Below are positions 9,323 to 31,585 of a stretch of DNA of 33,234 nt, in pieces. Every line of letters begins with the position of its first letter. The first letter of the stretch is position 1. The notes beneath the pieces are model-generated. The model saw only the letters and a list, made by a program, of their open reading frames with translations, did not search any database and was not told where the DNA came from. Source of the DNA: Sphingobacteriales bacterium (GTDB lineage Bacteria; Bacteroidota; Bacteroidia; Chitinophagales; Chitinophagaceae); the NCBI GenBank assembly GCA_027491165.1, contig JAIXWS010000022.1:1-33234 (forward strand). The letters are read 5' to 3'. The position numbers and the translations under genes were made by a program.

Positions 9323-9372
9323 TGAGTATTTTTATTTTTTGTACAAACAAAGAATTGTCGATGTTTTAAAAA

Positions 9373-10743
9373 TTATTTCTTTTCTTCTGCTTTGGGCAAA
9401 TAATACACGACCAAGCGATTTTCTTTGGTGAAGTATTTTTTAGCTACACGCTGTAAATCTTCTTTGGTAATTTTTGTGTATTTATTCAATTCTGTGTTGA
9501 TTAAATTGGCATCACGGAAATAAGTATAATTAGTGGCCAAATTTTCTACAATACCCGCTACACGGCCATTCTGGCTTACAAAATCGTTCTCTATTTGGTT
9601 CATCAATTTCTTATACTCAGCATCAGTTAAGGGTGTTGACAGCACCTTAGCGATTTCATCATCCATTATTTTCTCTAGCTCTTCGGGTTTTGTACCCATG
9701 TTGGCAATACCAAACATCATCACTGCTCCGGGTTGCTCGTTAGGCAATGCAAATGCACCCACAGCAAGGGCTTTTTGTTGTTTGTCTACAATTTCTTTTT
9801 GGAAACGAGAGCTCTTACCTTGTGACAACAATTGGTTCAATAATTGTAAGGCATAGAAATCATCTGAACCCATAGCTGCACCATGGTAAGCTAAAATAAC
9901 TGCGGGCAATTGAACATTGTCATAGAATGTAGTACGCTTTTCGGCTGTTTGTGCTGGCTCTACTTGGGTTGGGCGAGGAATATCTTTAGTACCCCGCGGG
10001 ATTGTTGCAAAATATTTTTCAATTAATGGTTTTGCGCTAGCCTCTGTAATATCACCACCAATAACCAGTACAGCATTGTTGGGGACATAAAAGGTTTTGT
10101 AAAAATCCATGAACTCTGAAATTTTGGCTTGATCTATATATTGCTCTTTACCGATAGGGCTCCAACGATAAGGGTGAACAGTGAATAAATTCTCGAATAC
10201 GACATTGAGCAATTGACCATATGGGCGATTGTCGTAGCTCTGTTTCTTTTCTTCCTTCACCACCTTACGTTGTGTTTCTACACCCACTTCATCAATTTTG
10301 GCTTGAAACATACGTTCAGATTCCATCCACAGTGCAAGCTCTAATTGATTCGAAGGCAGGGTTTCAAAATAAAATGTACGGTCTTGTGAGGTATTGGCGT
10401 TCAATTGTCCACCATTTGCTTGTACTAATTTCATGTACTCACCACGTCCAATATTTTCACTTCCTTCAAACAATAAATGCTCGAAGAAATGCGCAAAACC
10501 AGTACGCTGGGGATCTTCATTTTTCGAACCGACATGATACATTACCGATACGGTAACTATTGGTGTACTGTGATCTTCGTGTAGAATGACATGTAGACCA
10601 TTAGGCAAATCGAATTCTGTAAATTTAATTTTTCCTTGAGCAGCAGGTTTTGCAGCAGCTGCTGCAACTTTAGTCTGTGCAATTGATGGCGCACTAAGCA
10701 GGGATGTACCGAGCAATAACGCATAAACAGCTTTTAACTTCAT
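9373..10743 (-). CDS. Periplasmic zinc peptidase, M16 family (catalytic partner)
   Basis: A 456-residue M16 peptidase. The inverted zinc motif HFFEH gives H85, E88 and H89, and a downstream Glu-rich segment (VVKEEKK) can supply the third ligand. A signal peptide (1-22, ending PSIAQ) places it in the periplasm. The ATG at 10743 is chosen because it begins the signal peptide; the frame extends to 10800 without adding meaningful sequence. It is first in a two-gene operon with the zinc-site-lacking homologue, matching known active/inactive M16B pairs. Substrates are probably peptides or signal-peptide-like fragments, not knowable here. Confidence 0.93.
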   Translation of the reverse strand: MKLKAVYALLLGTSLLSAPSIAQTKVAAAAAKPAAQGKIKFTEFDLPNGLHVILHEDHSTPIVTVSVMYHVGSKNEDPQRTGFAHFFEHLLFEGSENIGRGEYMKLVQANGGQLNANTSQDRTFYFETLPSNQLELALWMESERMFQAKIDEVGVETQRKVVKEEKKQSYDNRPYGQLLNVVFENLFTVHPYRWSPIGKEQYIDQAKISEFMDFYKTFYVPNNAVLVIGGDITEASAKPLIEKYFATIPRGTKDIPRPTQVEPAQTAEKRTTFYDNVQLPAVILAYHGAAMGSDDFYALQLLNQLLSQGKSSRFQKEIVDKQQKALAVGAFALPNEQPGAVMMFGIANMGTKPEELEKIMDDEIAKVLSTPLTDAEYKKLMNQIENDFVSQNGRVAGIVENLATNYTYFRDANLINTELNKYTKITKEDLQRVAKKYFTKENRLVVYYLPKAEEKK

Positions 10744-10766
10744 AAGAATAAGTGCATTTTGAGGGT

Positions 10767-10774
10767 CAAAATTA
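10767..10774 (-). promoter_or_regulatory. Candidate -7 box of the M16 operon
   Basis: On the minus strand this reads TAATTTTG, an exact TAnnTTTG match 24 bases ahead of the chosen ATG. No TTG at 17-23 bases upstream. The gap is shared with the divergent HAD gene, for which I see no matching box. Confidence 0.4.
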
Positions 10775-10880
10775 TCAATTAATGCGTTAGTATGTTGCAT
10801 TGACCAAAGATTTATCCCGAAAATCTACCGAAACTCCACCGCCATAATGGATATTTGCACCAATTTTGAATAGTAGCACG

Positions 10881-14081: not shown

Positions 14082-14128
14082 ATATTCTTAAACTTAATTT
14101 TGAAACAGTATCTCTTAGGTAATGAAAA

Positions 14129-14156
14129 CAAAATTATCATTTAGCTAATTGCACAA
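14129..14156 (-). promoter_or_regulatory. Possible internal promoter for wzc
   Basis: Minus-strand TTG (14154-14156), 17-base spacer, TAATTTTG (14129-14136), overlapping the end of wza. It fits the consensus at the short spacer limit. AT-rich sequence makes chance matches likely. Confidence 0.3.
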
Positions 14157-14967
14157 TACCAAATACCGAAAGTGCCGTGGTGACTATGCCCGTAAACAAG
14201 GGCAAATAAAATAATAAAAACTCGTTGGTTTGTTGCCTTTTCAATCGATTAGGCTCTACATAAACAATATCGTTTTTTTGAAGGTAATAATAGGGGCTCG
14301 TAAAGAGCGATTTGCTATTGAGATTGATACGACTAAATTCCAATTTTCCGGCATTTTCTCGAATGATCAATACCCTATCTTTTCTTCCAGTTAAAGGAAT
14401 GTCACCTGCCGAGGCTATAGCTTCTAAAATATTGATTTTGTGATTAGGAGCAAATATGGGTCCAACCCTATTGATTTCTCCCATCATATTCACCTTATAG
14501 TTTAATACACGAACCTCTACTACAGGAGCTTTTATGTAAGACACTAATTTATCTGAAATTGTTTTTTTGGCTTCAGCAGTGGTTAAGCTCCCAATTTTAA
14601 TTTTACCCATTACTGGAAAATCAATATTGCCTTCGGCATCAACCAAATAACCTTTTACCGAAGTGCCACCGCCACCGCCTGAAGCGCTATTTCCAGATGT
14701 TGCTGCAAGATTGTAAGGCACACCTCCTTCATTAAAAATGCCAACCGGATCTTTTTGGGTAAAGGCATCCTCACTGCTGATATTGATAGCAACAATATCC
14801 TCTGGAGCAATGGTCACTTTGGGCCGAGCTAATACCTGTACAATCTCCTTAGCAGTATCTGCTTTTTCATTTGTGTAAAAATAGGTCACTCTTTTAGGTG
14901 AAGAACAAGAGGCGAAAATTGAAACAGCAAACAAGGCAATCAATCCATTCAATTTTGTCATTTTCAA
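14137..14967 (-). CDS. wza: Wza-like polysaccharide export lipoprotein
   Basis: A 276-residue polysaccharide export protein. The signal peptide ends in a lipobox FASC with C21 as the lipidated Cys. A Poly_export domain (about 50-155; IAPEDIVAINISSEDAF at its start) is followed by an SLBB-type domain (about 157-240; MGEINRVGPI, then ILEAIASAGDI). A hydrophobic C-terminal segment (about 253-274) could be the outer-membrane-spanning helix or a membrane anchor. It should form the outer-membrane exit channel for the polymer handled by the Wzc kinase encoded 55 bases downstream. A second ATG, two codons in, is possible as start. It is shorter than E. coli Wza (about 360 residues), typical for Bacteroidota. 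Confidence 0.93.
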   Translation of the reverse strand: MKMTKLNGLIALFAVSIFASCSSPKRVTYFYTNEKADTAKEIVQVLARPKVTIAPEDIVAINISSEDAFTQKDPVGIFNEGGVPYNLAATSGNSASGGGGGTSVKGYLVDAEGNIDFPVMGKIKIGSLTTAEAKKTISDKLVSYIKAPVVEVRVLNYKVNMMGEINRVGPIFAPNHKINILEAIASAGDIPLTGRKDRVLIIRENAGKLEFSRINLNSKSLFTSPYYYLQKNDIVYVEPNRLKRQQTNEFLLFYLPLFTGIVTTALSVFGIVQLAK

Positions 14968-14983
14968 TATATTTTACTGGGCG

Positions 14984-15014
14984 CAAAGTTAACGGAAATA
15001 ATGATATGCTTCAG
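14984..15014 (-). promoter_or_regulatory. Candidate internal promoter for wza-wzc
   Basis: Minus-strand TAACTTTG (14984-14991) matches TAnnTTTG exactly. CTG stands 20 bases upstream in place of TTG. It lies in the cpsB-wza gap, 17 bases ahead of the wza ATG, so wza-wzc may also be transcribed apart from the upstream genes. Confidence 0.5.
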
Positions 15015-15025
15015 GTAATGGTAAT

Positions 15026-15781
15026 CTATAATTCCTTATTCTTAAAACCATATTCGCTGAGCTGCCACATAAGCTCTTGGTGCTCTTGAGGCATTGTTTG
15101 AATATGTGATAAATGGCGCTCATGATGCAGGTCGGTACCACAATAATCATATAAGCCTCTTGCTAACATTTTTTCAGCATTGATCTTTATGGATTTACCA
15201 TAATAACCCAATATGGAGAGCAAATTCATTTGCATTAATACACCCCTTTCTTTTAATTGTTCAAAAACATCCAATTTTGTCTCGTAAATATATCTTTCGG
15301 GATGAGCTAAAATGGGATGATATCCGTTGGCCTGAATTGCAAAAAGGATCTCATGAAACTGTCGATTCCAGCCCGCCATACTCACCTCTACAAGTACATT
15401 ATTATTGCCAAAAGGCATTAAGCCCTTGGGTAAAACCTGACTTAAAAAATAGGTGTCTAAAAAATATTCGGCTGATACCTGAATGCTCATATCAGGATGG
15501 TGCAGGGCCAAATGTTCTTTCAAAGGCTTAAATAGGTTCTGTACCTTGATGGTATCATTATCGTATATCTCGCCATGGATATGTGGCGTAGTAATAAATT
15601 TTCTATAGCCCAAGCTGTACAAAGCCTCTATAAAACGAAGGCTATCTTCTAGCGACTGGGAACCATCATCAATTGCGGGAACCAAATGGCTATGCATATC
15701 TGCGCCCAAAAAAGAAAAATCGGGCACTCGGTATGTTGGAATAGGAAGAGGAGGTTTTTTTTTCTTAAAAAATGAAAACAT
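15026..15781 (-). CDS. cpsB: PHP-family tyrosine-protein phosphatase (CpsB/YwqE-like)
   Basis: A 251-residue PHP-fold metallophosphatase, the kind that dephosphorylates BY-kinases in Gram-positive capsule loci. Metal ligands are all visible: HxH in DMHSHLVP (H30, H32), TPH (65-67), E105, HPER (160-163) and GTDLHH (215-220). No signal peptide; the N-terminal KKKK stretch suggests a cytoplasmic, possibly membrane-hugging protein. It lies between the glycosyltransferase and wza, so the operon encodes both the kinase and its probable phosphatase. Gram-negative enteric loci use an unrelated low-molecular-weight phosphatase (Wzb) instead. Confidence 0.92.
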   Translation of the reverse strand: MFSFFKKKKPPLPIPTYRVPDFSFLGADMHSHLVPAIDDGSQSLEDSLRFIEALYSLGYRKFITTPHIHGEIYDNDTIKVQNLFKPLKEHLALHHPDMSIQVSAEYFLDTYFLSQVLPKGLMPFGNNNVLVEVSMAGWNRQFHEILFAIQANGYHPILAHPERYIYETKLDVFEQLKERGVLMQMNLLSILGYYGKSIKINAEKMLARGLYDYCGTDLHHERHLSHIQTMPQEHQELMWQLSEYGFKNKEL

Positions 15782-15826
15782 CGTAGCAATTTTTGAATCA
15801 GAAAAAAATAAGGGGCTTTCTGCTCT

Positions 15827-16876
15827 TTACAAGCTTTTGCTAGACCACTTTAATGAGTTGTATCTTTTTTGCCCTTTTCCATAGTACTGCCAAATGATGC
15901 TGCCCTTGTATAAACCATTTTTATTGGGATGTGCAGATTTGATCTTTTGTGCAGCAGCTCTATGTTTTAGCCATTTACCGATAGAACCATAAAAGTTAAA
16001 ATGCGCTTTTATTACGGTTATAAATTCAATACGCTTGCCTTGAGAAAGTAAATGCAAACCCGCTATTCCATCCAATACCAATCGAAATGGGAATAGCCAT
16101 AGTAATCTTCCCAAACTTTCGTTTTTGAGCAATAAAACCAAGCTGTTCCTGAAATTATAAAATAGTTTTTGCGGACTACCATAACTAATTACACTACCCC
16201 CTACATGATAAACTGTTGAAGAGCCAATGTAACCAATTTTATAACCTGCATTTTTCAATCGCCAACAGAGGTCTATCTCTTCCATATGGGCATAAAAATC
16301 AGCATCTAAGCCACCAACCATATGATATAAATCGGCTCGTACAAAAAGGCACCCACCTGAAGCCCAAAAGATTTCAATATGATCATCATACTGCCCGTGG
16401 TCTTCTTCTATTTCGTCTAAAATTCTACCCCGACAAAACATGTAGCCAAGATTATCTTTAAAACCACCGGCAGCACCTGCATACTCAAACTTTTCTCGCT
16501 CCCGCCAATATTTAATTTTGGGTTGACAGGCAGCAAGTTGAATATCGGCTTCCATGGCGGTATACAAAGGTGCAAACCAACCTGGGGTAACCTCAAAGTC
16601 GGCACTGAGTAATACGTAATATTTGGATTGGATTTGTTGCAATGCTACAGCATATCCATTAGCAAAGCCTTTATTAATGGGTATCTGCAGTAGAGATACT
16701 GTAGGAAAATTTTGTCGAATATAATCAGCAGTATCGTCTGTAGAAGCATTATCTACCACCACCACAGTATACCCTGCGGTGGATTCTGCAACAATAAGAG
16801 GTAGAAAAAGCTCATGCCACTTTTTGCCATTATAGCTGAGTATGACAACAGCGGTGTCTTGAGCAGTTACCATCAT
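15827..16876 (-). CDS. Family 2 glycosyltransferase
   Basis: A 349-residue GT-A fold transferase of the GT2 rhamnosyltransferase-like group. Visible motifs: VVVVDNASTDDTADYI at the nucleotide-binding edge (38-53), SADFE in the DxD-like position (91-95), and the acceptor/catalytic segment WASGGCLFVR followed by HMEEIDLCWRL (about 171-207). A hydrophobic patch (about 245-285) suggests membrane association. It probably adds a sugar to a lipid-linked repeat unit in the cytoplasm. Only one transferase is in this operon, and no flippase or polymerase, so most of the assembly genes must lie elsewhere. Met1 and Met2 are adjacent; either may be the start. The sugar is unknown. Confidence 0.9.
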   Translation of the reverse strand: MMVTAQDTAVVILSYNGKKWHELFLPLIVAESTAGYTVVVVDNASTDDTADYIRQNFPTVSLLQIPINKGFANGYAVALQQIQSKYYVLLSADFEVTPGWFAPLYTAMEADIQLAACQPKIKYWREREKFEYAGAAGGFKDNLGYMFCRGRILDEIEEDHGQYDDHIEIFWASGGCLFVRADLYHMVGGLDADFYAHMEEIDLCWRLKNAGYKIGYIGSSTVYHVGGSVISYGSPQKLFYNFRNSLVLLLKNESLGRLLWLFPFRLVLDGIAGLHLLSQGKRIEFITVIKAHFNFYGSIGKWLKHRAAAQKIKSAHPNKNGLYKGSIIWQYYGKGQKRYNSLKWSSKSL

Positions 16877-20501: not shown

Positions 20502-21248
20502 GTGAAAATAGAAACAAGACATCTAATCAAAAAGTATGGCAAAAGAACGGTTGTTAATAATGTTTCTTTTGAGGTGCAACAAGGAGAGGTGGTAGGCTTA
20601 CTGGGACCTAACGGAGCCGGCAAAACAACATCTTTCTATATGGTAGTGGGTTTAGTAAAACCTGATGAAGGGTCTGTTTTTTTAGATGGGGAGGACATCA
20701 CAAAGCTACCCATGTACAAACGTGCCCAAAAGGGTATAGGATATTTACCGCAAGAGGCTTCCGTATTTAGAAAATTATCTGTAGAAGACAACATTGGTGG
20801 AGTACTTGAACTGACAAAGCTTTCACGCGCCGAACAATTATACAAGCGCGATGCCTTGCTCGAAGAGTTTAGACTCACCCATGTGCGCAAAAGTCCAGGA
20901 GATGTGTTGAGCGGTGGTGAACGGCGACGAACCGAAATAGCAAGAGCCTTAGCAGTAGATCCAAAGTTTATCTTATTAGATGAACCCTTTGCAGGAATTG
21001 ATCCCATTGCTGTAGAAGACATACAATCTATCGTGGCTAAGCTAAAGTTTAAAAATATAGGTATCCTCATCACCGACCACAATGTTCAAGAAACACTATC
21101 CATAACAGATAGAGCCTATCTACTGTTCGAAGGTTCTATATTAAAAGCTGGTGTAGCCGAAGAGTTGGCAGCAGACGAACAAGTACGAAAAGTGTATCTT
21201 GGACAAAATTTTGAATTGAAAAGAAAGAATTATACCGTCACAGAGTAA
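20502..21248 (+). CDS. lptB: LPS export ABC transporter ATPase LptB
   Basis: A 248-residue ATPase that powers LptB2FG, extracting LPS from the inner membrane. Motifs: Walker A GPNGAGKT (35-42), the LptB-type Q-loop [17 protein letters not shown] (81-97), signature LSGGE (136-140), Walker B ILLDEP (157-162) and switch His in TDHNVQE. The Q-loop is nearly identical to E. coli LptB, which makes the assignment firm. The start is GTG at 20502, placed at the family N-terminus. Other lpt genes are not in the window. The GH3-like gene follows 82 bases downstream with its own promoter. Confidence 0.96.
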
Positions 21249-21266
21249 AATATTTGGGGCATTATT

Positions 21267-21295
21267 TTGCTAATTGCTGTGCAATGTTACTTTTG
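21267..21295 (+). promoter_or_regulatory. Promoter of the GH3-like gene
   Basis: TTG (21267-21269), 18-base spacer, TACTTTTG (21288-21295), an exact consensus match 35 bases ahead of the GH3 ATG. The GH3 gene can therefore be expressed apart from lptB. Confidence 0.6.
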
Positions 21296-21330
21296 CCCAA
21301 CGAAACAAAATTGATTGCCAATACATAATT

Positions 21331-22845
21331 ATGGGTATTCTCAGTCCTGCTATCAAAAATTTTTTAAAACTGCGCGCGAGTGTGATTGACAATTTTATGC
21401 TCAATCCTATCGACACCCAAAAGCGTGTGTTTAATGATTTAATCGGTAGCGCACAATTTACCGAATATGGCAAAAAATACGACTTTGAGCATATCAACAG
21501 CATTGCAGAATTTCAGGAAAAAGTACCCCTTAATAATTACGATACGCTCAAACACTATATCCAACGTATCTTAGAAGGAGAGCAAAACATTCTTTGGCCA
21601 TCCGAAATTTCTTGGTTTGCTAAAAGCAGTGGTACAACCTCAGATAAAAGTAAATTTATTCCAGTTTCTAAAGAAGCTTTAGACGACAATCATTACAAAA
21701 GCGGCAAAGATGCTGTAGCATTGTATTTATCCAAATATCCAGAGTCCAAAATAACCTCCGGTAAATGCCTGGTTATTGGTGGCAGCCATCAACTCAATCA
21801 ACTCAACGAAGATACTTTTTACGGTGATCTATCAGCCGTTATGATGCAAAATATGCCATGGACAGGACAATTTTTGCGCACACCCGATTTGTCGATTGCC
21901 TTAATGGATGAATGGGAAGAAAAAATAGAAATGATCGCCCAAAGCACCATCCACGAAAATGTAACTTTTATAACGGGCGTACCTACTTGGACAATCGTTT
22001 TATTCAAAAGAATATTGGAAATAACAGGTGCCCAAAACATGCTGGAAGTTTGGCCCAATCTGGAGCTATACCTACATGGCGGCGTGAGTTTTAAACCATA
22101 TAGAGAACAATTCAAAAAGTACATCCCTTCTGAGGAGATGCGCTATATCGATTCATACAACGCATCCGAAGGCTTTTTTGCGTCGCAAGATGCCCAAGAC
22201 GAAGACGGCATGCTGCTCTTCCTAAACCATGGTATTTTTTATGAGTTTATAGCAATGGATGAATTTGGAAAAGAAAATGCCGAAGTACATAGCCTAAAAA
22301 GTGTTCAACTCAATACCCATTACGCCCTTGTGATCAGCACCAATACTGGTTTGTGGCGATACGTCATTGGGGATACTATTCAATTTACCTCCCTGGCCCC
22401 CTATCGTATTAAAATAACCGGCCGTACTACTTTTTATCTGAATGCTTTTGGTGAAGAAGTAATTGTGGACAATGCCGATTATGCGATTGCAAGGGCCTGT
22501 AAAAACACAGGAGCAATCGTAAACGATTATAGCGCTGCACCTATTTATATGACCGACAAGAATAATGGTGCACACGAATGGGTTATTGAATTTGAGGAAC
22601 TACCTTGCCCATTGGCTACTTTTGTACAAGAAATGGACGATGCGCTGAAATCGATTAACTCTGACTACGAGGCTAAACGCCAAAAAGATATAGCGCTTAG
22701 AATGCCTATTGTACACATTATGCCTAAAGGCGGTTTTTCGCAATGGCTGAAAAACAAAAACAAATTAGGCGGTCAACACAAAATACCTCGCTTGAGCAAT
22801 GAACGTAAATTGATAGAGGAATTAATACCCCTCACCATAAAATAA
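21331..22845 (+). CDS. GH3 auxin-responsive-family acyl-adenylating enzyme
   Basis: A 504-residue member of the GH3 branch of adenylate-forming enzymes. The three ATP/AMP-binding motifs are intact: SSGTTSDKSK (99-108), YNASE (276-280) and RYVIGD (344-349). Plant GH3 enzymes join carboxylic acids to amino acids; the bacterial members, frequent in Bacteroidota, have no settled substrate that I know of. The C-terminal part (from about 395) is the mobile domain. No signal peptide or membrane segment, so cytoplasmic. The ATG at 21331 begins the conserved region; an upstream in-frame extension to 21274 overlaps the promoter. It lies after lptB and ends inside a terminator hairpin. Confidence 0.9.
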   Translation: MGILSPAIKNFLKLRASVIDNFMLNPIDTQKRVFNDLIGSAQFTEYGKKYDFEHINSIAEFQEKVPLNNYDTLKHYIQRILEGEQNILWPSEISWFAKSSGTTSDKSKFIPVSKEALDDNHYKSGKDAVALYLSKYPESKITSGKCLVIGGSHQLNQLNEDTFYGDLSAVMMQNMPWTGQFLRTPDLSIALMDEWEEKIEMIAQSTIHENVTFITGVPTWTIVLFKRILEITGAQNMLEVWPNLELYLHGGVSFKPYREQFKKYIPSEEMRYIDSYNASEGFFASQDAQDEDGMLLFLNHGIFYEFIAMDEFGKENAEVHSLKSVQLNTHYALVISTNTGLWRYVIGDTIQFTSLAPYRIKITGRTTFYLNAFGEEVIVDNADYAIARACKNTGAIVNDYSAAPIYMTDKNNGAHEWVIEFEELPCPLATFVQEMDDALKSINSDYEAKRQKDIALRMPIVHIMPKGGFSQWLKNKNKLGGQHKIPRLSNERKLIEELIPLTIK

Positions 22846-22891: not shown

Positions 22892-23821
22892 TTATTTCAT
22901 AATCAGCACCCCATTTGGGTTTAACATCCGAGAGAGTGAATCTTTCATTTTTGCCGTGTCCGAAGGCATAAGCTTTATGGTATTGACCACGTAAAAAGTA
23001 TTAGAGTCTTTATTTACCACGCCAACATTATATCCGTAAGAAAAAAGTTGCTTTTGCTTTTTCTCTGCTTTGGCTAGGGTTTTGAATTCTTTGATGATAA
23101 ACTTAAAACTCGGCGTGTCCAATGTGTTCCCTGACAGATTACCTGCAGTGATTGCGCTATCAGTACCTTGCTGAGCACCGGTATCGGAGACCATCAATTC
23201 AGTTGGGGGAGCACTTGGATTTTCTGCCTGATCTAGCATTGTATTCGAGGCCTTTTGTGAATTCATAACATAAAGAATACCCCAACCAATAATACCAGCT
23301 CCTACAAGGATGATGAAGCCCCAAAAAGCCACCATATTCCAGTTAACAATACGATGCTTATTGTAATTATTATACGTTTCAAAGCTTGGTTCATCTTTCA
23401 CTTTTTGCGCCTCAGCATGGGCCATAGCAGGCATGTCAATAGGAAATAAAAGGGGGTGATTGGGTAGTGCAAATGCTGCGTCTAACTCAAAATGCAGCTC
23501 ATGCTCCTTCATCACATATTGACCGACTGATGGTATAACTACCGAAGAGCCTAAAGCCATTTTGGCTTTGCTCTCCTGAATAAATGCACTAATCTCATTG
23601 GAAGCCTTAGCAATACTTACCTGCTCATTATTAGCAACAAAATTGGGGAAAGCATCATCGATCGAACCCATGGGGTTGAGTGTAGCATAATAAGTACCAC
23701 TTATTAATTCCTTACCATCATGTTGTGCCGCTATACGCTTTATCTCTACATTTCCTAATCCTTGCAGGCAGCAATATTTATTCTTAAGTAAATAAAGTCC
23801 CACATACTTGGCAATATCCAT
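22892..23821 (-). CDS. HU/CCDC81-type domain protein with membrane segment and SPOR domain
   Basis: A 309-residue protein with three parts. Residues 1-115 look like the two HU-like modules of the CCDC81-type bacterial family (DIAKYVGLYLLKNKYCCLQGLG at the start, then a segment with VVIPSVGQYVMKEHELHFELD). One membrane segment spans about 163-186. A low-complexity linker (190-235) leads to a SPOR domain (about 238-309, FKFIIKEFKTLAKAEKKQKQL). There is no signal peptide, so the N-terminal part should be cytoplasmic and SPOR periplasmic. SPOR domains bind peptidoglycan stripped of stem peptides at division sites. It is last in the four-gene operon headed by the TonB receptor, 36 bases after the barrel gene. 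Confidence 0.85.
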   Translation of the reverse strand: MDIAKYVGLYLLKNKYCCLQGLGNVEIKRIAAQHDGKELISGTYYATLNPMGSIDDAFPNFVANNEQVSIAKASNEISAFIQESKAKMALGSSVVIPSVGQYVMKEHELHFELDAAFALPNHPLLFPIDMPAMAHAEAQKVKDEPSFETYNNYNKHRIVNWNMVAFWGFIILVGAGIIGWGILYVMNSQKASNTMLDQAENPSAPPTELMVSDTGAQQGTDSAITAGNLSGNTLDTPSFKFIIKEFKTLAKAEKKQKQLFSYGYNVGVVNKDSNTFYVVNTIKLMPSDTAKMKDSLSRMLNPNGVLIMK

Positions 23822-23857
23822 AATCTACTTGTTTGTCTTTTTTTTCGTTAGGCGAAA

Positions 23858-25486
23858 TTAAAATTTCAAGCGCACACCACCATAAATATTTATACCGTAG
23901 GCCTGATAATCTTGCCAGCGTTGATATTTATTATTCAGTAGGTTATTAAAATTTAAAAACACTGATAGCTTTTGCAAAACAATATATTCTGCACCAAAGC
24001 CTATATCCAAATAAGGTTTCAACTTGATGCTTTGATAGCTTGGAGATAATGCATAATTACCGCCAACATAGGCGGAGTAGGCGCTGATACTCAGCTCCTT
24101 TAAAGGATTCCATTGCAAATCCCCATTAAAACGAAGCGAAGGGGTATGCCATACTTTGGCATTACCAAGGATGTTGTTGAAATGAAACAAAGCAAGTTGA
24201 CCACCTACTGAAAGTTCCTTTCCAACTTGGTATCTCATGCCTAACTGCACAGAAAGCGCATTGAGCTTGGGTATGTACATAACCATCATTTTCTCAGGAT
24301 CTCCAAGAGGTGGATTGATAAATGTGGCGAAATTTTCATATTGCCACCAACTCAACTTTCCGGTAAAACTAAAATGATGGCCAAGCGCTTTTTCTCCCAA
24401 TAGAAAAATTTCATTACTGTGTGTTTGAAGCGAAGGGAAAGTGCTAATAAAGGGATTGATTTCGAATAATTGCTGAAAGGTATTTTGAATCAAAGATCCT
24501 TTTAAACCTAGGGCTATATTGGTTTTAATTTCAGAAAATGTATACTTACATTCAATATCTCTGAGCAAAAAAGCCTTTTGATTTTGACCAATTGTAGGTA
24601 ATAAATAAGCTTTTAGGGAAAATTTATCCCGACTATAATTCGCCCCCATTTTCAAAGAAGTAAAACTGTTGTTTACATTGTACAACTGCGCATTGAGTTG
24701 GGTTGTATTCGCTTCTATTGCTACTGTACCTAATAATGAACTGTCCCACTTTTTCTCTAGCCCCACTTCACCAAATACGGCCGTTTGGCTGCTGATCAGG
24801 CTACCTGTATAATAAGAAAGACCCAGATGAGCTATTTTCCTAAAACCCTTATTGCCAAAAGCTTTCTCTAAAAAACGCGTAGTCATGCTAGCACCACTGA
24901 GTGTTTGTTTCCCAGCTATTTTATTGGGTAATGCCGCTTGATCATAACCGTACTGATAAAAATTTTGATGTTGTGCAGCAAGGTCGAATTGTAGATTATA
25001 CTTTGATTGTTGATAAATAGCCATGGCATTCAGTGTAGCAAGGGTTTGCTTTTGATACTGAAATGCTCCCTTTTGACTTAAAAAACCAAAATGTACAAAT
25101 GTCTCCACATTTTTAGCGGCCATTTGATTAAAACCAGCGTCTAAAAAAATGGTTCTCAAATTCCCAAGACCTGCTTTTACATAATTCTTAAAACCTTTGT
25201 TAGTGGTGTCACTGCCAAATGCCAATGGCTGTAAAGGCCTAGGTTTGTATACATAATTCACTGTTTGCGCAGGAATATTGTAATCAAAAATTGTAGCAGA
25301 GGATTCTCTCGGCGGCAAAGTAGGGCTATAGGTTTCTTTAACCGCTTGTTTTATTTGCGGTTGGTAAATTTGGCTAATCTCTATCGTGGTCGCTTTAATC
25401 GTCGTGTCATTGACTTTGGGCTGTGCCATGGCGAATACACTAGACAGGACACATAAGCTCGAAAAAATATAGGTATACTTGTTCAT
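23858..25486 (-). CDS. Outer-membrane TonB-receptor-like beta-barrel, no plug
   Basis: A 542-residue protein with a signal peptide (1-21). After a short proline-containing stretch (to about 85), the rest is made of amphipathic strands with frequent aromatic ends, for example NLQFDLAAQHQNFYQYGYD. The end FLNFNNLLNNKYQRWQDYQA followed by GGVRLKF is characteristic of the last strands of TonB-dependent receptors. No plug domain or TonB box is visible, and it is shorter than a full receptor. It starts 3 bases after the TPR gene stop, so translation is probably coupled. It may be a partner channel or scaffold of the TPR protein rather than a transporter. Confidence 0.82.
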   Translation of the reverse strand: MNKYTYIFSSLCVLSSVFAMAQPKVNDTTIKATTIEISQIYQPQIKQAVKETYSPTLPPRESSATIFDYNIPAQTVNYVYKPRPLQPLAFGSDTTNKGFKNYVKAGLGNLRTIFLDAGFNQMAAKNVETFVHFGFLSQKGAFQYQKQTLATLNAMAIYQQSKYNLQFDLAAQHQNFYQYGYDQAALPNKIAGKQTLSGASMTTRFLEKAFGNKGFRKIAHLGLSYYTGSLISSQTAVFGEVGLEKKWDSSLLGTVAIEANTTQLNAQLYNVNNSFTSLKMGANYSRDKFSLKAYLLPTIGQNQKAFLLRDIECKYTFSEIKTNIALGLKGSLIQNTFQQLFEINPFISTFPSLQTHSNEIFLLGEKALGHHFSFTGKLSWWQYENFATFINPPLGDPEKMMVMYIPKLNALSVQLGMRYQVGKELSVGGQLALFHFNNILGNAKVWHTPSLRFNGDLQWNPLKELSISAYSAYVGGNYALSPSYQSIKLKPYLDIGFGAEYIVLQKLSVFLNFNNLLNNKYQRWQDYQAYGINIYGGVRLKF

Positions 25487-25489
25487 AAT

Positions 25490-28400
25490 CTATCCCTCAC
25501 TTAATTTACTTTTTCCTTTTTCCAATCCCTTTACCTGTTCTAATTTTTGAAGTGCTTCCTTCTTCAAAAGTTCCATTTGTACATTTTTCACAACGCTTTG
25601 CAAAGTGGCTTTGGCATTGAAATAATCCTTTTGAGCGATAAAAACATCTGCCATCAATAGGTAGGATTTTGTGTTCCAATAAGTACTATTGGTTGTTTGC
25701 TGAATGGCTTTATTAGTAGCAGCTTCAGCAGCACTTAACTTGTTTTGTGCTAATAAAATTTGAGCTATTTTATAGTAGGACTCTGCAGCAATTTCAATAT
25801 TTTTTGCCTCAGCTAATTGACCGTAAATAACAGTGGCCTCATTATATTTTTGCCCTTGCAAGAGCACAGCGGCTTTCACTAACAAGGCCTCATTTTTGCT
25901 TTGTTCATCCAGATCAGGCAAGGTCAATAAGGTATCGGCAAAACTATTGCTTAGATCATATTTATTTTGATTTTTAGTAGCCGTCATCAAGCCTTTGTAG
26001 GCCAATTTTAAATGCTCCTTACTCATGGCATTGTTACGCAATAACCCATAGTATTTTTCGGCAGTGATGTACTTATTTTGGGCCAAAGCCAGTGCTGATG
26101 CTTTCAATGCAGAGGGCTCTGTAAAATCGCTCCAAGGCTGCATCAATACAGCATCATAACCTATAATAGCCGAGTCAAATTGTTTCAGTTGGTAATGACT
26201 TTCTGCTTTGTAAAAATGCGCTTTGGTATAAAAAATACCTTGTGGATATTCATGCAGATAACTGCCCATTGCCTCAGTAGCCTTATCAAATTTACCCGCA
26301 ACATATTGGGTTTCAGCGGCAGCATAAAACAAGGAGTCTACAGCAGCCTTATCTGTTGCCGCAAGATTATTGTCTTTTAAAAATTGAAGGTATTCTTTGG
26401 GCTTATTACTGCTTACCAATAAATTCTTAAGTGCCTCGAGTGCTCCATATTTTTGCTCCGAATTAGGGTAATTTTGAACCACTTTTTTGTAGCTTTCAAT
26501 AGACTTTGCAACGTTATCGGCCTCTTGATATGCAAAACCTATTTTCATCAATGCACTTATAGCAAGATGCTTGGCTGTTTGGTCATTTATTTTCTGAAAA
26601 TGATTAATAGCATCTTCGTATTTATTAGCATCTAAATGCAAATCACCTAGAACATAATGAGCCTCATATTGATACTTCGACGCTGGATTTTTTTGTGCAA
26701 TAATTTCCAAAAGCATGTCGGCCTGCTCTGCAGGTTTACCTTGCAAACCCAATAAAGTGCTCTTCTGAAAACGGGCATAATCAGCGTCAGGACTATTTAG
26801 ACCCATTGCTTTGGCATACAGCTCACCAGCCTTTACATAATCCTTCTCTAAAAAAGCAGCATCCGCTTCGCGCATAGCCGCATCGGCAGCTCTTGCGGAC
26901 GAATAATTTTGATGAGACTGTTTGCGCTGGGCTTGCGCAAAAAATTGTCGTGCTTGTGCAAAATCTTGCTTATTTAAGGCTGCATAGCCCATAGTCATCA
27001 GTGCATTTTGCGCTGTTGCATTAACACTAATAACGGCAACTTGCGGGTTATTTTTGGCCATGAATGTAGTGGCATTGGCAAGAGCGGCTGTATAGTTTTT
27101 ATTGCGGTAATCGATCTCTGCCTTCCAAAAATAAGCAGCTGCGGTGTATCCTATGTTCTCATCCTTTTCAATAGATTCATTCAATAATTTTTCGGCAGTA
27201 GACCAATTGTTTTGTTGGATATTTTGGATTGCAAAACAATAGGTGATTTTTTGTGCGAGCGACTTTGATGCGCCTTCACTTTGATGCAACAATTGATAGG
27301 ATTCGCTATAATTTCCATCTTTAAACAATTGCTCAGAGAGCAGGTTTGTAGCTTCAGATTTGTATGTGGATGTTGGATATTCCTTGAGTAACTTTTGCAA
27401 CTGAGCACTTCCTTCGTTACTGTAGCCCAATTCAAATGCAAGCTTAGCGGAAACAAGCAAGGATGACTGAATCAGCCCTTCATTAAAGGGCATTTCACTA
27501 CAAATACTAAAAGCATTTTTAGCGCCTTTTTTATCATTGATTTTAAGGTAGCAGTCGCCCAACAAGTACATCGCATCTTGCCCAAGATTATCCTGCACTG
27601 TACTCAATTGCTGAAAAGGCTCGATGGCTTTTTGCCACTGTTGCATGCGGTAATAGCAATAACCCATTTTGTACAAATCTTGCTTCCTTATCTTGGATAC
27701 ATTTTGATAATAAAACTCAAAATAAGGAATAGCCAATTCGTACTCAGCTCCTTCAAAAAGACATTGTGCAGCAAGTAAATAGGTTTCGTTAAAATAATAA
27801 GACTTCTCTGGCTGGGCAATAATAGCCTTTGCTTTTTGCAAGGATTGTGCTCTTTGCCCGTCGAAATATAAAATCTCCGCGATATAGTAGGGCACTACGT
27901 TTTTGTATTGTTTAAGCAACTCTATTTTTTGAAAACTGGCTAGTGCATTTTTATAATCACCTTCGTTATAAGCGAGCAATCCAAAATAATAGTGTGCTGC
28001 AGCAGCATAAGGCCCTTCAAGTTCTTTTAGGGCAATTAATAAGGCTTTGGATTCTCTAAATTGTTTACTGTTGAAATAGCAATAAGCAAGTTCAAATTTG
28101 GCAGCGGCAATTTCCTGATTGCTCAAATTGGCAATGCCTGCTTTCTTATAGGCTTGGATAGCCAATGACCAATTGCCTTTGTTAAAGTGATACTTTGCAG
28201 TGGCAAAAGCTGCAAGCTCTGTATAAGCAGGATGAATCGCCTCCATTATAGGCGGATACTTACCCTGCGCAATAGAGGAAACAAGCCTTAAATATTCTGC
28301 TTTATCTTGTTGAACAATTGGGTCAAGGCGGACAAAAAGAGCATCTTTTTGCAACAAATATTGATGGGCAGAAAAATAAGAGGCAGCATATAAATTTTGC

Positions 28401-28549
28401 CTGTATTGCTGTTCGGCATTATTCAGGCAATTATTGTGGCTCAGAAAAGGAGTATGTATTTGAGCCCAAGAATGCGTATTACCCAACAGCGCGAACGATA
28501 ATACAACTAAGGAATTTATGCCTATTCTACTCTTTTTCTTCACTTCCAT
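25490..28549 (-). CDS. Large periplasmic tetratricopeptide-repeat protein
   Basis: A 1019-residue protein with an N-terminal signal (about 1-29, ending HSWAQ). Nearly the whole length is helical repeats with TPR signatures, such as GNWSLAIQAYKKAGI, GDYKNALASFQKIE, EYELAIPYFEFYYQ, KDYVKAGELYAKAMG and NKYEDAINHFQKI. I estimate more than 20 repeats. No catalytic motif and no membrane segment beyond the signal. Arrays of this kind form superhelical binding surfaces, here in the periplasm. It begins 11 bases after the TonB receptor stop and ends 3 bases before the barrel gene, so it is built to be made with both. Confidence 0.9.
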   Translation of the reverse strand: MEVKKKSRIGINSLVVLSFALLGNTHSWAQIHTPFLSHNNCLNNAEQQYRQNLYAASYFSAHQYLLQKDALFVRLDPIVQQDKAEYLRLVSSIAQGKYPPIMEAIHPAYTELAAFATAKYHFNKGNWSLAIQAYKKAGIANLSNQEIAAAKFELAYCYFNSKQFRESKALLIALKELEGPYAAAAHYYFGLLAYNEGDYKNALASFQKIELLKQYKNVVPYYIAEILYFDGQRAQSLQKAKAIIAQPEKSYYFNETYLLAAQCLFEGAEYELAIPYFEFYYQNVSKIRKQDLYKMGYCYYRMQQWQKAIEPFQQLSTVQDNLGQDAMYLLGDCYLKINDKKGAKNAFSICSEMPFNEGLIQSSLLVSAKLAFELGYSNEGSAQLQKLLKEYPTSTYKSEATNLLSEQLFKDGNYSESYQLLHQSEGASKSLAQKITYCFAIQNIQQNNWSTAEKLLNESIEKDENIGYTAAAYFWKAEIDYRNKNYTAALANATTFMAKNNPQVAVISVNATAQNALMTMGYAALNKQDFAQARQFFAQAQRKQSHQNYSSARAADAAMREADAAFLEKDYVKAGELYAKAMGLNSPDADYARFQKSTLLGLQGKPAEQADMLLEIIAQKNPASKYQYEAHYVLGDLHLDANKYEDAINHFQKINDQTAKHLAISALMKIGFAYQEADNVAKSIESYKKVVQNYPNSEQKYGALEALKNLLVSSNKPKEYLQFLKDNNLAATDKAAVDSLFYAAAETQYVAGKFDKATEAMGSYLHEYPQGIFYTKAHFYKAESHYQLKQFDSAIIGYDAVLMQPWSDFTEPSALKASALALAQNKYITAEKYYGLLRNNAMSKEHLKLAYKGLMTATKNQNKYDLSNSFADTLLTLPDLDEQSKNEALLVKAAVLLQGQKYNEATVIYGQLAEAKNIEIAAESYYKIAQILLAQNKLSAAEAATNKAIQQTTNSTYWNTKSYLLMADVFIAQKDYFNAKATLQSVVKNVQMELLKKEALQKLEQVKGLEKGKSKLSEG

Positions 28550-28560
28550 TCTTTATTAAC

Positions 28561-30909
28561 TTAAAAGCGCCAAGAAACGTTTATACTAGGGAAAACGGGT
28601 AATTGATAGTAAACCTTATTATCCAATCTATTTACATAAAAAACGTTGTTTCGATCGTAGACATTTGTGAGGGCAAATGTAGATTCGAGTGAAGAATAGT
28701 TGCTGATTTTAAAGGTCTTTTTTAAAGACAAATCCATACGGTGATAATGGGTAAGACGACCTCCGTTAATGGTGTTGGCATAAAGGGTATTGATATTGCC
28801 ATTTTGGGTGAGTGGATTTGAAGCTAAGCTACCACCAGTCAAATTGACATTCTCACTAAAAGCCTGTGTTTGGGTAAAGGGGAATGGTGAGCCGTAGTTA
28901 AACCTTACTGAAAGATCCCAGTCTTTTTGCTTTCCTAATGTATAAGAACCCACCAAGTTAAGGTTGACACGACGGTCGAATGGTGGAGGATAGGATTGCG
29001 TGCTGTAGCTACCATTAAAATTCTCTAGACGGGTGGTATATTCAATCTTTTGGTAAGAAAGCACAGCCCAAAGGAATACGCGCTTGACAACGTATTTTGC
29101 TGATAAATCTATACCTGCTGCCCTACCTTTATCTGCTTGGAAATCAGCGATGCTGGTAGCATTTACGCCTTTGGTACGATTCAGCTGAATAATCTGAGCG
29201 AAATTTTTGTACCAGGGCTCGATGTTAAATTCCACATCCTTAATATCAAATTCAACACCCGCTACTAAATGCTGCGCTCTTTCGAGATTACTCGCTGCAT
29301 TTTGCCTGTCCGTATTTAAAATTCTTTGGTCGGGACTCAAAACAAAACCGTTGAAAAAATTCACCACATCTCTATCTGATTTGATACCTACAATATTTTG
29401 AGAATATAAACCCGCTGCTGCTTTAAAGCGCAAATTGCTATTGGCATTAAACTTCATGTTTATTCTTGGTTCGGGAGAAATAGCCCCTTGAGAAGAATAA
29501 TATTGGATACGCAAACTAGGCTCTAATATAAAACGTTGGTTAAAGTTTTTCTTGTAAACAAAAAATGCAGAAGCCGTAGTATTGTTTCTGTCTAAAGAAA
29601 TGGTTTGTCCTAAAGAAGTTTGGTAGTCCAATTTCGTGCTTTGACCAGCCACTTCAATGCCATATTTCAATTGGCTATAGCCAGGGAAAAAGTAGGTAAA
29701 ATCAATGGCTCCCTCAAAATTATTAATACCGCTGCTACGGGGTGCGTAATTCGCTTCTTGGTTATTGATTTTATAAGTAGAATAGGCAAACTTACCGTTG
29801 ATCAGTGAAGAAGATCCTGCGGGGGATACCACAAATGTAGTACCTGCACCAAAAGACTTCCAATCGAACATGGCTGTAGATTCGCCTCTGCTATTCAATA
29901 CGTTTGCCCTGTCATTAAAATTAAATCCAAATAAGTTGAATTTCGAACCATTATTACCACTAAAGGTAACTTTACCATAAAGGTCTGTAAACTCAAAGGG
30001 CAAACCATTTTTGAACTGTTCACCTAGGCCACTATAAATTGATTTTGATGTTTGACTCAAATAACTGTGTTTTGCCGAAATCAAGAAAGTAGAACTTCCA
30101 CCTTCTGGGTCTTTTTGTTTCATCAAAGGACCTTCTAACATACCCCGCACCATTATTGGCGAAGCAGATACCGTTCCCGATAAACGTTGGTTGTTACCAT
30201 CTTTGGTATGGATATCTAAAATGGCAGAACTTCTATTACCATAGGTTGCATTAAAGCCTGCAGTATAAACATCTGCAGAGCGAATAGCATCAGTTTCGAA
30301 AACAGAATACAAACCAATAGAGTGAAATGGATTATAAATAGTAATCCCATCAAGCAAAATACCTGTCTGAACAGGCGAGCCACCCCTAATGTATAATTGA
30401 CCTCCTTGGTCGCCTGTAAAAGTAACACCCGGTGTAACTTGTAAATATTGTGCCAAATCTGGCTCCCCACCCGAGCTGGGTAGTAATTTAATTTCTTTTG
30501 GCGTAATGGTGGTGGTACCAATATTGACCCGGGTAGTCTTTTGGATTTTTCGGGCGGATACATCCACACCTTTCAGCTCCAATCCTTTTGAATCGAGGTA
30601 AAATTTCTTGGTTACAAAGTCATTGGCCACAACTTTTACTGTTGCAAAGGCAGTATCATATCCAAAAGACGTTGCGAATAAAGTATATTGTCCTGGCGCC
30701 AGCTGTCCAATTGTAAAATAGCCATTTGCATCTGTTTGTGCACCCATTTTAGTGCCTTTTACAAATATATTGGTAGTACCCAAAGCCTCACCTGTACCTT
30801 TTTCATACACAAAACCTTTGATCGCTCCGGTAGAAGAAGTAGACTGTGCAACGACAGTGGTGATACTGATGCAAACCAAAAGGCTCACAAAACTTAAAAT
30901 TTTACGCAT
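28561..30909 (-). CDS. TonB-dependent outer-membrane receptor with carboxypeptidase-like N-terminal domain
   Basis: A 782-residue receptor. Signal peptide 1-21; carboxypeptidase-D regulatory-like domain at about 27-110 (GAIKGFVYEKGTGEALGTTN); plug at about 125-240 with LYIRGGSPVQTGILLDGITI; then a 22-strand-type barrel to the terminal SWRF, a proper aromatic end. No SusD partner is adjacent, so it is not a standard glycan-uptake SusCD pair. It heads a four-gene operon with an exact promoter 51 bases upstream. Substrate unknown; the neighbours (TPR, barrel, SPOR) suggest a structural or envelope-linked role rather than nutrient import, but this is inference. Confidence 0.93.
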   Translation of the reverse strand: MRKILSFVSLLVCISITTVVAQSTSSTGAIKGFVYEKGTGEALGTTNIFVKGTKMGAQTDANGYFTIGQLAPGQYTLFATSFGYDTAFATVKVVANDFVTKKFYLDSKGLELKGVDVSARKIQKTTRVNIGTTTITPKEIKLLPSSGGEPDLAQYLQVTPGVTFTGDQGGQLYIRGGSPVQTGILLDGITIYNPFHSIGLYSVFETDAIRSADVYTAGFNATYGNRSSAILDIHTKDGNNQRLSGTVSASPIMVRGMLEGPLMKQKDPEGGSSTFLISAKHSYLSQTSKSIYSGLGEQFKNGLPFEFTDLYGKVTFSGNNGSKFNLFGFNFNDRANVLNSRGESTAMFDWKSFGAGTTFVVSPAGSSSLINGKFAYSTYKINNQEANYAPRSSGINNFEGAIDFTYFFPGYSQLKYGIEVAGQSTKLDYQTSLGQTISLDRNNTTASAFFVYKKNFNQRFILEPSLRIQYYSSQGAISPEPRINMKFNANSNLRFKAAAGLYSQNIVGIKSDRDVVNFFNGFVLSPDQRILNTDRQNAASNLERAQHLVAGVEFDIKDVEFNIEPWYKNFAQIIQLNRTKGVNATSIADFQADKGRAAGIDLSAKYVVKRVFLWAVLSYQKIEYTTRLENFNGSYSTQSYPPPFDRRVNLNLVGSYTLGKQKDWDLSVRFNYGSPFPFTQTQAFSENVNLTGGSLASNPLTQNGNINTLYANTINGGRLTHYHRMDLSLKKTFKISNYSSLESTFALTNVYDRNNVFYVNRLDNKVYYQLPVFPSINVSWRF

Positions 30910-30959: not shown

Positions 30960-30990
30960 CAAAGATAAGGATTAGGCCCCAAGCCCTCAA
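30960..30990 (-). promoter_or_regulatory. Promoter of the TonB-TPR-barrel-SPOR operon
   Basis: Minus-strand TTG (30988-30990), 20-base spacer, TATCTTTG (30960-30967), an exact consensus match 51 bases ahead of the receptor ATG. The four genes below it have gaps of 11, 3 and 36 bases and no further boxes that I can see. Confidence 0.7.
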
Positions 30991-31045
30991 AAGAAATTAA
31001 TGAACGTAAAATCAGGCTTTTTAGTACCTACTATTTAGATTACTA

Positions 31046-31549
31046 TTATGGGAGATTTTGCTTCATCCCTTTTTTAACTGCTTCGGCAAAGGCGATAACT
31101 TCTGTTGGGCTCAAAACAATATATTTTTCATCCTTTGTAGTAATCAATAATAAATTATTCTTCTCCGTGATTTGCATATTCAATATGCCATACTCGGCCG
31201 AAAGAAAATAACCAAACCAACCCCACAAACCGCCCGAACCCCAAAGCCTTAGCCTTACTTTGAGCTCTTTGTAAGCAATGGTCTCAAGGCTGGCGATATT
31301 ATTAAAGGGTATTGTTTTAGGCCATAATTTTTTATGAATGCTAATACCCATCTCATCAATAGCATATTGAAAGGGACGCAAAACGTAGCAAAGCGAAAAC
31401 AAAACAACCAATATCAACACATTCAACAAAGCCAGTTCGATACCTGTTTGAAAATACAAAATAATGGGTATGGGCAGAATAGCAAAATGCACTATGGTCG
31501 TGATTATTTTGACCGTATTGTCCATTTGTGTGGTAAATATGTGCTTCAT
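31046..31549 (-). CDS. Small membrane protein with PH-like soluble domain
   Basis: A 167-residue protein. Two adjacent hydrophobic segments (about 15-33 and 39-57) make a membrane hairpin, followed by a soluble domain of beta strands (about 64-160: YAIDEMGISIHKK, then a TIPFNNIASLE segment, then YIVLSPTEVIAFAEAVKK). This layout resembles bacterial PH-domain (bPH/YdbT-like) membrane proteins; the fold is inferred. The Gly/Trp-rich piece LWGSGGLWGWFGYF in the middle is typical of one such group. The ATG at 31549 is preferred over a TTG at 31576. It stands alone, divergent from ligA and 136 bases before the TonB receptor. Function unknown. Confidence 0.7.
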   Translation of the reverse strand: MKHIFTTQMDNTVKIITTIVHFAILPIPIILYFQTGIELALLNVLILVVLFSLCYVLRPFQYAIDEMGISIHKKLWPKTIPFNNIASLETIAYKELKVRLRLWGSGGLWGWFGYFLSAEYGILNMQITEKNNLLLITTKDEKYIVLSPTEVIAFAEAVKKGMKQNLP

Positions 31550-31585
31550 GTAGCCGATTATATTTTTGAAATGCAATATTACTGA

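Follow-up and report, generated by a model that had tools for sequence, protein, structure and literature searches.

A conserved TPR-barrel gene module of Bacteroidota and its candidacy as a Tol-like envelope machine

Four genes and their flanking signals

The locus lies in a contig of a Sphingobacteriales bacterium (GenBank assembly GCA_027491165.1, contig JAIXWS010000022.1, positions 1 to 33,234; this whole stretch of 33,234 nucleotides is referred to as the window). Four ATG-started open reading frames (ORFs) are arranged in tandem on the minus strand, separated by gaps of 11, 3 and 36 bases, with a promoter match in front and a strong hairpin behind:

30960-30991, minus strand: Bacteroidetes-type promoter match, TTTG-N20-TATCTTTG
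28561-30909, minus strand: TonB-dependent receptor with carboxypeptidase-like domain and plug, 782 amino acids (aa); optional first gene
25490-28549, minus strand: TPR protein, 1019 aa, predicted helical solenoid with an N-terminal signal-like segment; core gene
23858-25486, minus strand: predicted plug-less 22-strand outer-membrane barrel with a disordered N-terminal extension of about 97 residues (signal included), 542 aa; core gene
22892-23821, minus strand: HU-TM-SPOR-like protein, 309 aa
22840-22870, no strand assigned: strong hairpin between the operon end and the convergent gene, likely a shared terminator

The initial annotation had described these genes as an operon preceded by one exact promoter, followed by a terminator-like region and lacking SusD, and this description was confirmed. 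The four proteins were annotated against Pfam (E values up to 0.1). The receptor matched CarbopepD_reg_2 (E = 2e-15) and Plug (E = 5.1e-11), the second protein matched many TPR families, the barrel matched no family, and no SusD family was among the hits of the four proteins. The promoter match is exact, although the loose pattern is not rare: there are 3 matches in the window against 1.53 expected, and 22 of 100 shuffled sequences contained 3 or more. What counts is its position, given that about 0.003 matches are expected in the 150 bp before the operon. The hairpin comprises 14 pairs (-21.7 kcal/mol, z = -7.6) and lies between convergent genes; a simple terminator scan of the region did not list it, and the 9 sites that the scan returned equal the 8.9 expected.

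Structure models support the assignment of the two core proteins. The AlphaFold model of the TPR protein (mean pLDDT 86.4) is helical throughout, and a Foldseek search with it gave only generic repeat matches (TM 0.12-0.25 by query length in the 50 rows examined). In the AlphaFold model of the barrel (mean pLDDT 80.4), strands span residues 101-541, residues 1-97 are below 50, and no ordered part precedes residue 98, confirming the absence of a plug. Counting strands of 8 residues or more gave 22, and the best structural matches were barrels of TonB receptors (FhuA, Z = 23.4 over residues 89-542; BtuB, Z = 23.0), so that gene 3 has the predicted fold of a TonB-dependent receptor barrel.

The assignment of the fourth protein is less direct. 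Its HU part rests on PF18175 only (E = 4.6e-4; 20.5 bits against a cut-off of 35), and a transmembrane (TM) segment at about residue 168 is followed by 123 residues in which Pfam found no SPOR domain. However, a C-terminal profile of its clade (8 sequences) aligned to the C-termini of 18 selected orthologues with 95.6% probability, against 0.3% and 0.6% for two controls. Among 50 orthologues, SPOR was found in 34, HU-CCDC81_bac_2 in 31 and Bac_DNA_binding in 23. Orthologues thus support the presence of both domains, whereas the hits of the window protein itself do not settle it.

Conservation of the TPR-barrel pair

To determine whether the four genes are conserved neighbors, as had been proposed in advance as a test of the initial annotation, homologs were sought in a draw of 198 genomes of the phylum. 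Strong hits to the TPR protein and to the barrel fall in the same 142 genomes, and both are missing by the thresholds used from the other 56. Of the 142, the genes are adjacent in 102, separated by a gap of 0.5-1.4 kb in 10 and apart in 30, these classes being defined by distance and not by counting genes. For the barrel, a diverse profile matched 185 genomes at E = 1e-10, of which the 142 at 104 bits or more were kept (the best genome dropped had 88 bits), whereas an order-level profile had found 89 of 198. For the TPR protein, full hits of 372 bits or more were kept, and second copies and hits up to 178 bits were dropped. Only the best few candidates per genome were scored (4 for TPR, 7 for the barrel), such that a diverged copy can be missed, and the diverse profiles were built partly from genomes in the same draw, without holding these out. 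Bacteroides and other named gut genera were not tested for the pair. PF18174 alone was a poor tracer, found in 39 of 198 genomes but not in that of the window.

Gene order was further examined in 41 order-level loci, of which L031-L070 represent 40 of the 55 other genomes with a TPR match, chosen for the length of their contigs. TPR and barrel genes were found together in 41 of 41 loci and an HU and/or SPOR gene was third in 32 of 41. In 15 of these 32, the third gene ends 0-33 residues after its membrane segment and has no room for a SPOR domain; 10 of the 15 were scanned, none with a SPOR hit. In locus L097, from a further set, inspection by eye showed TM-SPOR with no evident HU part; the HU-SPOR bridge is therefore not constant.

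The receptor, by contrast, is not a core member. It is directly upstream of the TPR gene in 13 of 41 order-level loci and present in 30 of 77 named loci, and in the five genomes of other families with its closest relatives (830 bits or more) it lies on another contig (four genomes) or about 350 kb from the TPR gene (genome G119). The 80 named loci are the best 80 of 570 confirmed and are not independent, at least six (L155, L156, L157, L158, L173 and L184) being contigs already present among the genomes; in L194 and L197 the ORF first selected was antisense, and the barrel was found on a second look. A SusCD-type uptake operon was rejected because the receptor is optional and no SusD family was among the Pfam hits of the four proteins.

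Linked motor genes and the distribution of TolB

In other lineages, the barrel gene is often followed by HU/SPOR, TolQ/ExbB-, TolR/ExbD- and TolA/TonB-like genes, which are not in the window and were not part of the initial annotation. A TolA-like gene lies 0.8-4.2 kb downstream of the barrel on the same strand in 85 of 142 genomes; it is elsewhere in 47, and in 10 none was found. An ExbB-like gene lies 0.1-3.1 kb from the barrel on the same strand in 24 of 101 loci examined. Loci L071-L130 were chosen to spread over families or to center on barrels, so operon frequencies in them are not a random sample. MotA_ExbB and ExbD domains were over cut-off in the two operons scanned (L073 and L097), and the motor residues are kept (Thr in 24 of 24 ExbB-like and Asp in 24 of 24 ExbD-like proteins). 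However, these proteins score below the curated TolQ/TolR and ExbB/ExbD cut-offs: TolQ 108.1 of 221 and TolR 56.5 of 127.3 bits in L097, and 65.6 and 33.4 bits, respectively, in L073. For the transducer, TonB_C was over cut-off in L097 (28.4 of 24.6), no family was found in L073 and L083, and only 8 of 18 sequences have the S-x3-H motif typical of TonB/TolA, a mixed outcome that does not decide whether a TolA/TonB C-terminal domain is a general feature. In the genome of the window, an ExbB-like gene (273.7 bits) and a TolA-like gene followed by a FolC-like gene are on two other contigs; no ExbD-like gene was seen beside the ExbB-like gene.

The module was then compared with the components of Tol-Pal. 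Full-length TolB occurs in 43 genomes, the module in 142, neither in 13 and both in none. The 13 with neither are those of families f30, f33, f46, f55 and f58, and G071. The TolB model TIGR02800 was over its cut-off in 0 of the 142 module genomes and in 41 of 198 overall, all of one family, f35, so that the contrast rests on a single family. That f35 is Chlorobia is an inference from its tol-pal genes, small genomes and lack of SprA, not checked by name; a flavobacteria-like identity once considered for another family, f41, is not supported. A Fisher value ignores phylogeny and was not used. Weak, partial TolB-model matches occur in 188 of 198 genomes, reaching 171 bits in a module genome, and a published survey based on HMM presence counts Tol-Pal as almost complete in Bacteroidetes (PMC8871954). 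No OmpA-type family, as expected of Pal, was among the Pfam hits of the four window proteins; the rest of the genome was not searched for Pal. The window TPR protein scores 124.5 bits against a cut-off of 90.1 on TIGR02795 (CpoB/YbgF), but through 6 stretches of repeats in a protein of 1019 residues, which leaves a correspondence with CpoB undecided.

A tentative Tol-like model and its alternatives

The initial annotation had inferred an envelope-spanning assembly running from the cytoplasm to the outer membrane, perhaps tied to division or envelope constriction rather than nutrient uptake. This interpretation is partly supported: gene order is conserved strongly for the TPR-barrel pair and fairly for an HU and/or SPOR gene in third place, and the division-linked, envelope-spanning role gains from motor genes that share the operon elsewhere, whereas the receptor as a core member is not supported and the case for SPOR is weaker than in the initial annotation.

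In the explanation favored here, which is held tentatively, the window carries the local form of a conserved module that may stand in for the Tol-Pal machine with which other bacteria pull in their outer membrane at division. A plug-less 22-strand barrel and a long periplasmic TPR scaffold would make up the outer-membrane end; a membrane protein with HU-like domains on the cytoplasmic side and, in many lineages, a peptidoglycan-binding SPOR domain on the periplasmic side would tie it to the inner membrane and perhaps to the nucleoid or division site; and a TolQ/ExbB-TolR/ExbD proton motor with a TolA/TonB-like transducer would supply force. Most likely, in this view, the machine organizes or pulls the outer membrane against peptidoglycan during constriction in lineages without canonical Tol-Pal, and the TonB receptor is an addition in one clade. 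Gene order, co-occurrence, domains, barrel fold and linkage to motor genes were demonstrated by the analysis; the physical complex, the transmission of force to the TPR protein or barrel and the division role are inferences. No complex was modeled, and interfaces, localization, depletion phenotypes and outer-membrane constriction were not examined. No experiment was performed. The lack of SPOR in 15 of 32 close loci lowered confidence in this explanation and in the stronger reading below, and the 13 genomes with neither system and the 57 in which the TolA-like gene is elsewhere or was not found also weigh against it.

A stronger reading, considered unlikely although not excluded, is that this is the missing Tol-Pal counterpart of Bacteroidota: a proton-driven machine running from HU domains at the nucleoid, through the inner membrane and SPOR-marked peptidoglycan where present, along a TPR cable to a TonB-receptor barrel that lost its plug and became an outer-membrane anchor instead of a transporter. 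A locus that brings together a scaffold, an outer-membrane barrel, an HU/SPOR membrane protein and, in many lineages, a proton motor with its transducer makes this question testable by depleting one or two genes, and it would also show a TonB-receptor barrel turned from a transporter into a structural part.

Compared with Tol-Pal (TolQ-TolR-TolA-TolB-Pal-CpoB), the module has the same class of inner-membrane motor and transducer, a periplasmic TPR partner and, in many lineages, a peptidoglycan-binding partner, but its outer-membrane end is a plug-less barrel with a TPR protein of about 1000 residues instead of TolB-Pal, and an HU membrane protein is added.

Among the alternatives, all judged improbable although transport, polymer export and a T9SS-linked role stay possible, two survive best. 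The TPR-barrel pair and its motor could serve type IX secretion (T9SS) or the envelope changes it needs, as SprA is present in 154 of 198 genomes, including 141 of the 142 module genomes, and 184 of 198 agree. This overlap is broad but not strict: 13 genomes have SprA without the module and one (G060) the module without SprA. No T9SS gene was recognized inside the operons scanned, although only a few neighbors were covered, and PorW/SprE matches the TPR protein at only 43.9 of 250 bits. Equally, the locus could be a TonB-type uptake operon in which the receptor, or the barrel itself with another plug, imports a nutrient with the linked ExbBD-TonB, assisted by the TPR and HU/SPOR proteins. The plugged first gene, the TonB-receptor fold of the barrel and the ExbBD/TolQR class of the linked motor are in its favor, and the module shares ExbB/ExbD/TonB-like genes and a TonB-receptor barrel fold with the Ton system. 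However, the conserved barrel lacks a plug, the plugged receptor is optional, no SusD family was among the Pfam hits of the four proteins, and the near-strict co-occurrence of TPR and barrel suits a core task better than one substrate.

Still less likely is a polymer exporter of the TPR-plus-barrel kind (BcsC, PgaA, PelB, AlgK-AlgE), passing a polysaccharide or lipid-linked product through the barrel. A long periplasmic TPR solenoid next to an open wide barrel fits, but no synthase was found in the window operon, the barrel has 22 strands of TonB-receptor type rather than the 16-18 of those exporters, TPR and barrel are separate genes, and a proton motor is linked. An outer-membrane biogenesis factor (lipid, LPS or protein insertion) using the barrel as platform is comparably doubtful, since the wide plug-less barrel, the scaffold and the effect of Tol-type systems on lipid balance are compatible with it but no lipid-transfer or POTRA family was among the Pfam hits of the four proteins.

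Other systems share parts of this arrangement. PorE and the vWA-TolQR-TPR clusters of PMC12204202 are offered there as a Bacteroidetes tether and as a new force-transducer class, respectively, the latter also having a TPR gene by TolQR-like genes; PorE, however, is a single OmpA-type lipoprotein, and the vWA clusters use a vWA transducer, with no barrel found mentioned. The HU/SPOR gene, third in the module, resembles the HU-CCDC81/SPOR proteins (HU-CCDC81_bac_1 and _2), described by Burroughs and Aravind in 2017, although the window copy is below the Pfam cut-offs and many close relatives end at the membrane segment. Finally, an FtsE-like gene, whose product scores below the FtsE cut-off (233.7 of 264.85) and which was set aside as main evidence, lies divergently next to the TPR gene in 5 of 101 loci.

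Gene organization and conservation of the module

The observation that opened this analysis holds: the four open reading frames (ORFs) lie on the strand, and have the lengths and intergenic gaps, that the initial annotation had described. The promoter match in front of the operon is exact and well placed, although the loose pattern is not rare in the window, and a strong hairpin follows the last gene. The fourth gene is a softer case than had been claimed, because its HU part scores below the Pfam cut-off and its SPOR part is recognizable only through orthologues.

Conservation of gene order, which the initial annotation had put forward as a test of its reading, was examined in 40 loci of order-level relatives plus the window. 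The barrel gene is next after the TPR gene in 41 of 41 loci, a gene of the HU/SPOR family is third in 32 of 41, and the TonB receptor gene is directly upstream in 13 of 41. A second set, which partly overlaps the first, comprised the best 80 of 570 confirmed loci; these are the nearest titled neighbors of the window's organism in that scan (mostly Bacteroidetes and Chitinophagaceae MAGs, Taibaiella, Chitinophaga, and Ferruginibacter; one is titled Phycisphaerales). Here, the barrel is next in 76 of the 76 loci with downstream sequence visible, HU/SPOR is third in 66 of 72, and the receptor is upstream in 30 of 77. The receptor, which had been counted as one of the four components, is an addition in part of the order.

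At the phylum scale, searches with diverse profiles detected a full-length TPR homolog in 142 of 198 genomes (372 bits or more, with all other genomes at 178 or less) and the barrel in 142 of 198 (104 bits or more; best other genome, 88). These are the same 142 genomes; the two genes are adjacent in the same order in 102, separated by a gap of 0.5 to 1.4 kb in 10, and apart in 30. The 56 genomes without them fall in six families (denoted f30, f33, f35, f46, f55, and f58) and part of a seventh (f37), so there are at most seven lineages and not 56 independent events; f35 alone accounts for 43. Keeping both genes even where they are unlinked argues for a joint task.

In 5 of 101 fetched loci (L076, L077, L078, L079, and L106), all in families f24 and f25, an FtsE-like ATPase gene stands back to back with the TPR gene, directly upstream on the opposite strand; the best family for the L077 protein is FtsE, at 233.7 bits against a cut-off of 264.85. 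In two loci of one genus, L077 (10310-11170, plus strand) and L076, a PhzF-family gene sits between the TPR and barrel genes, and gaps of similar size occur in four other genomes of that genus (G082, G229, G197, and G123).

Linkage to motor genes

In linked operons, the barrel gene is followed by the HU/SPOR gene, an ExbB/TolQ homolog (PF01618, E = 1.7e-32 in locus L097 and 2.7e-22 in locus L073), an ExbD/TolR homolog (1.5e-28 and 5.2e-23, respectively), and a TonB/TolA-like protein, for which TonB_C is over the cut-off in L097 whereas no family was found in L073 and L083; folC comes next in L073 and L083. An ExbB-like gene lies on the barrel's strand, 0.1 to 3.1 kb away, in 24 of the 101 fetched loci. 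In one more, L036 of the window's family, it is 8.2 kb away on the other strand. A TolA-like gene, found in 136 of 198 genomes at E = 1e-8, is located 0.8 to 4.2 kb downstream of the barrel in 85 of 142 barrel genomes and elsewhere in 47, and was not found in 10.

The window's genome is of the split type, with the ExbB-like gene on one contig (C44), without an ExbD-like neighbor detectable by the profile used, and the TolA-like gene (88.2 bits), followed by a FolC-like gene, on another (C24). In some other split genomes, ExbB, ExbD, TolA-like, and FolC genes stand together (loci L132, L136, L138, and L242). Of 19 relatives, 18 have one ExbB of this subfamily at 243 bits or more.

Predicted structures and the variable third gene

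The AlphaFold model of the barrel (41 sequences; mean pLDDT, 80.4) has 22 strands between residues 101 and 541, by a count that left out five segments of 3 to 4 residues, and nothing ordered before residue 98. Its best structural matches are TonB-dependent receptors, aligned only over the barrel. An open barrel of this width needs a filler; that the TPR protein or the N-terminal extension provides it is inference. The model of the TPR protein (mean pLDDT, 86.4) is helical throughout, and its structural matches were generic only.

Among 50 orthologues of the gene that follows the barrel, Pfam models at E = 0.01 identified SPOR in 34, HU-CCDC81_bac_2 in 31, Bac_DNA_binding in 23, and HU-CCDC81_bac_1 in 14. 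In 15 of 32 order-level loci, the protein is 178 to 219 amino acids long and ends 0 to 33 residues after its most hydrophobic stretch; of the ten of these that were scanned, nine match HU-CCDC81 models weakly and none matches SPOR. In L097, a TM-SPOR protein without an evident HU part, as judged by eye, takes this place. Thus, the bridge from HU to SPOR is common but not constant, which weakens the division reading somewhat.

Contrast with Tol-Pal and the surrounding genes

Full-length TolB is present in 43 of 198 genomes (41 over the curated cut-off and two at 340.5 and 332.9 of 343.15), all in family f35, and none of these has the module. No module genome has TolB over the cut-off, although partial matches to the TolB model are common, occurring in 188 of 198 genomes. 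In the f35 locus L244, tolQ, tolR, tolB, pal, and ybgF pass their cut-offs and tolA scores 39.4 of 59.45; the six f35 loci look alike by gene sizes, with an extra ORF in L246 and no pal-sized ORF selected in L245. This pattern fits replacement, but it is one phylogenetic contrast, and SprA of the type IX secretion system (T9SS) shows nearly the same distribution: it is present in 154 of 198 genomes, 141 with the module and 13 without, and one module genome lacks it. In 13 genomes (G059, G063, G064, G068, G071, G073, G134, G142, G180, G188, G192, G222, and G235), SprA is present but neither the TPR-barrel module nor full-length TolB was found, which suggests a third arrangement or strongly diverged versions.

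The word SPOR does not occur in the text of PMC12204202. CpoB is described as coupling peptidoglycan synthesis to outer membrane constriction (PMC7391070), and, against PMC12204202, the Tol-Pal genes of Bacteroidetes have been counted as almost complete by HMM presence (PMC8871954). No paper that describes this operon was found in a literature search that left out most subscription journals. The HU-SPOR fusion was described in 2017.

Taken together, these genes form a conserved module for which there is a fair case as a Tol-like machine. The gene order, the co-occurrence, the domains, the barrel fold, and the linkage to motor genes in many but not all lineages are shown, whereas the complex, the path of force, and the division role are inferred. 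The proposal in the initial annotation, an envelope-spanning assembly perhaps tied to division, is partly supported.

Other genes in the window include the following:

31046-31576, minus strand: a protein with a bPH_5 (bacterial PH) domain (E = 3.8e-15), 136 bases upstream of the receptor gene on the same strand.
20502-22845, plus strand: an LptB-like ABC ATPase (371.8 bits, over the cut-off) followed by a GH3-family protein whose best NCBIfam match is OlsH, lyso-ornithine lipid synthetase, at 429.2 of 620 bits; convergent with the operon.
2134-3903, minus strand: a protein with a T9SS type A sorting domain (42.7 bits; cut-off, 23).
7247-10800, minus strand, and 11634-16876, minus strand: a pair of M16-like (YfmF/YfmH-type) proteins, and a polysaccharide set with a Wzc-like tyrosine kinase and a Cps4B-like protein.
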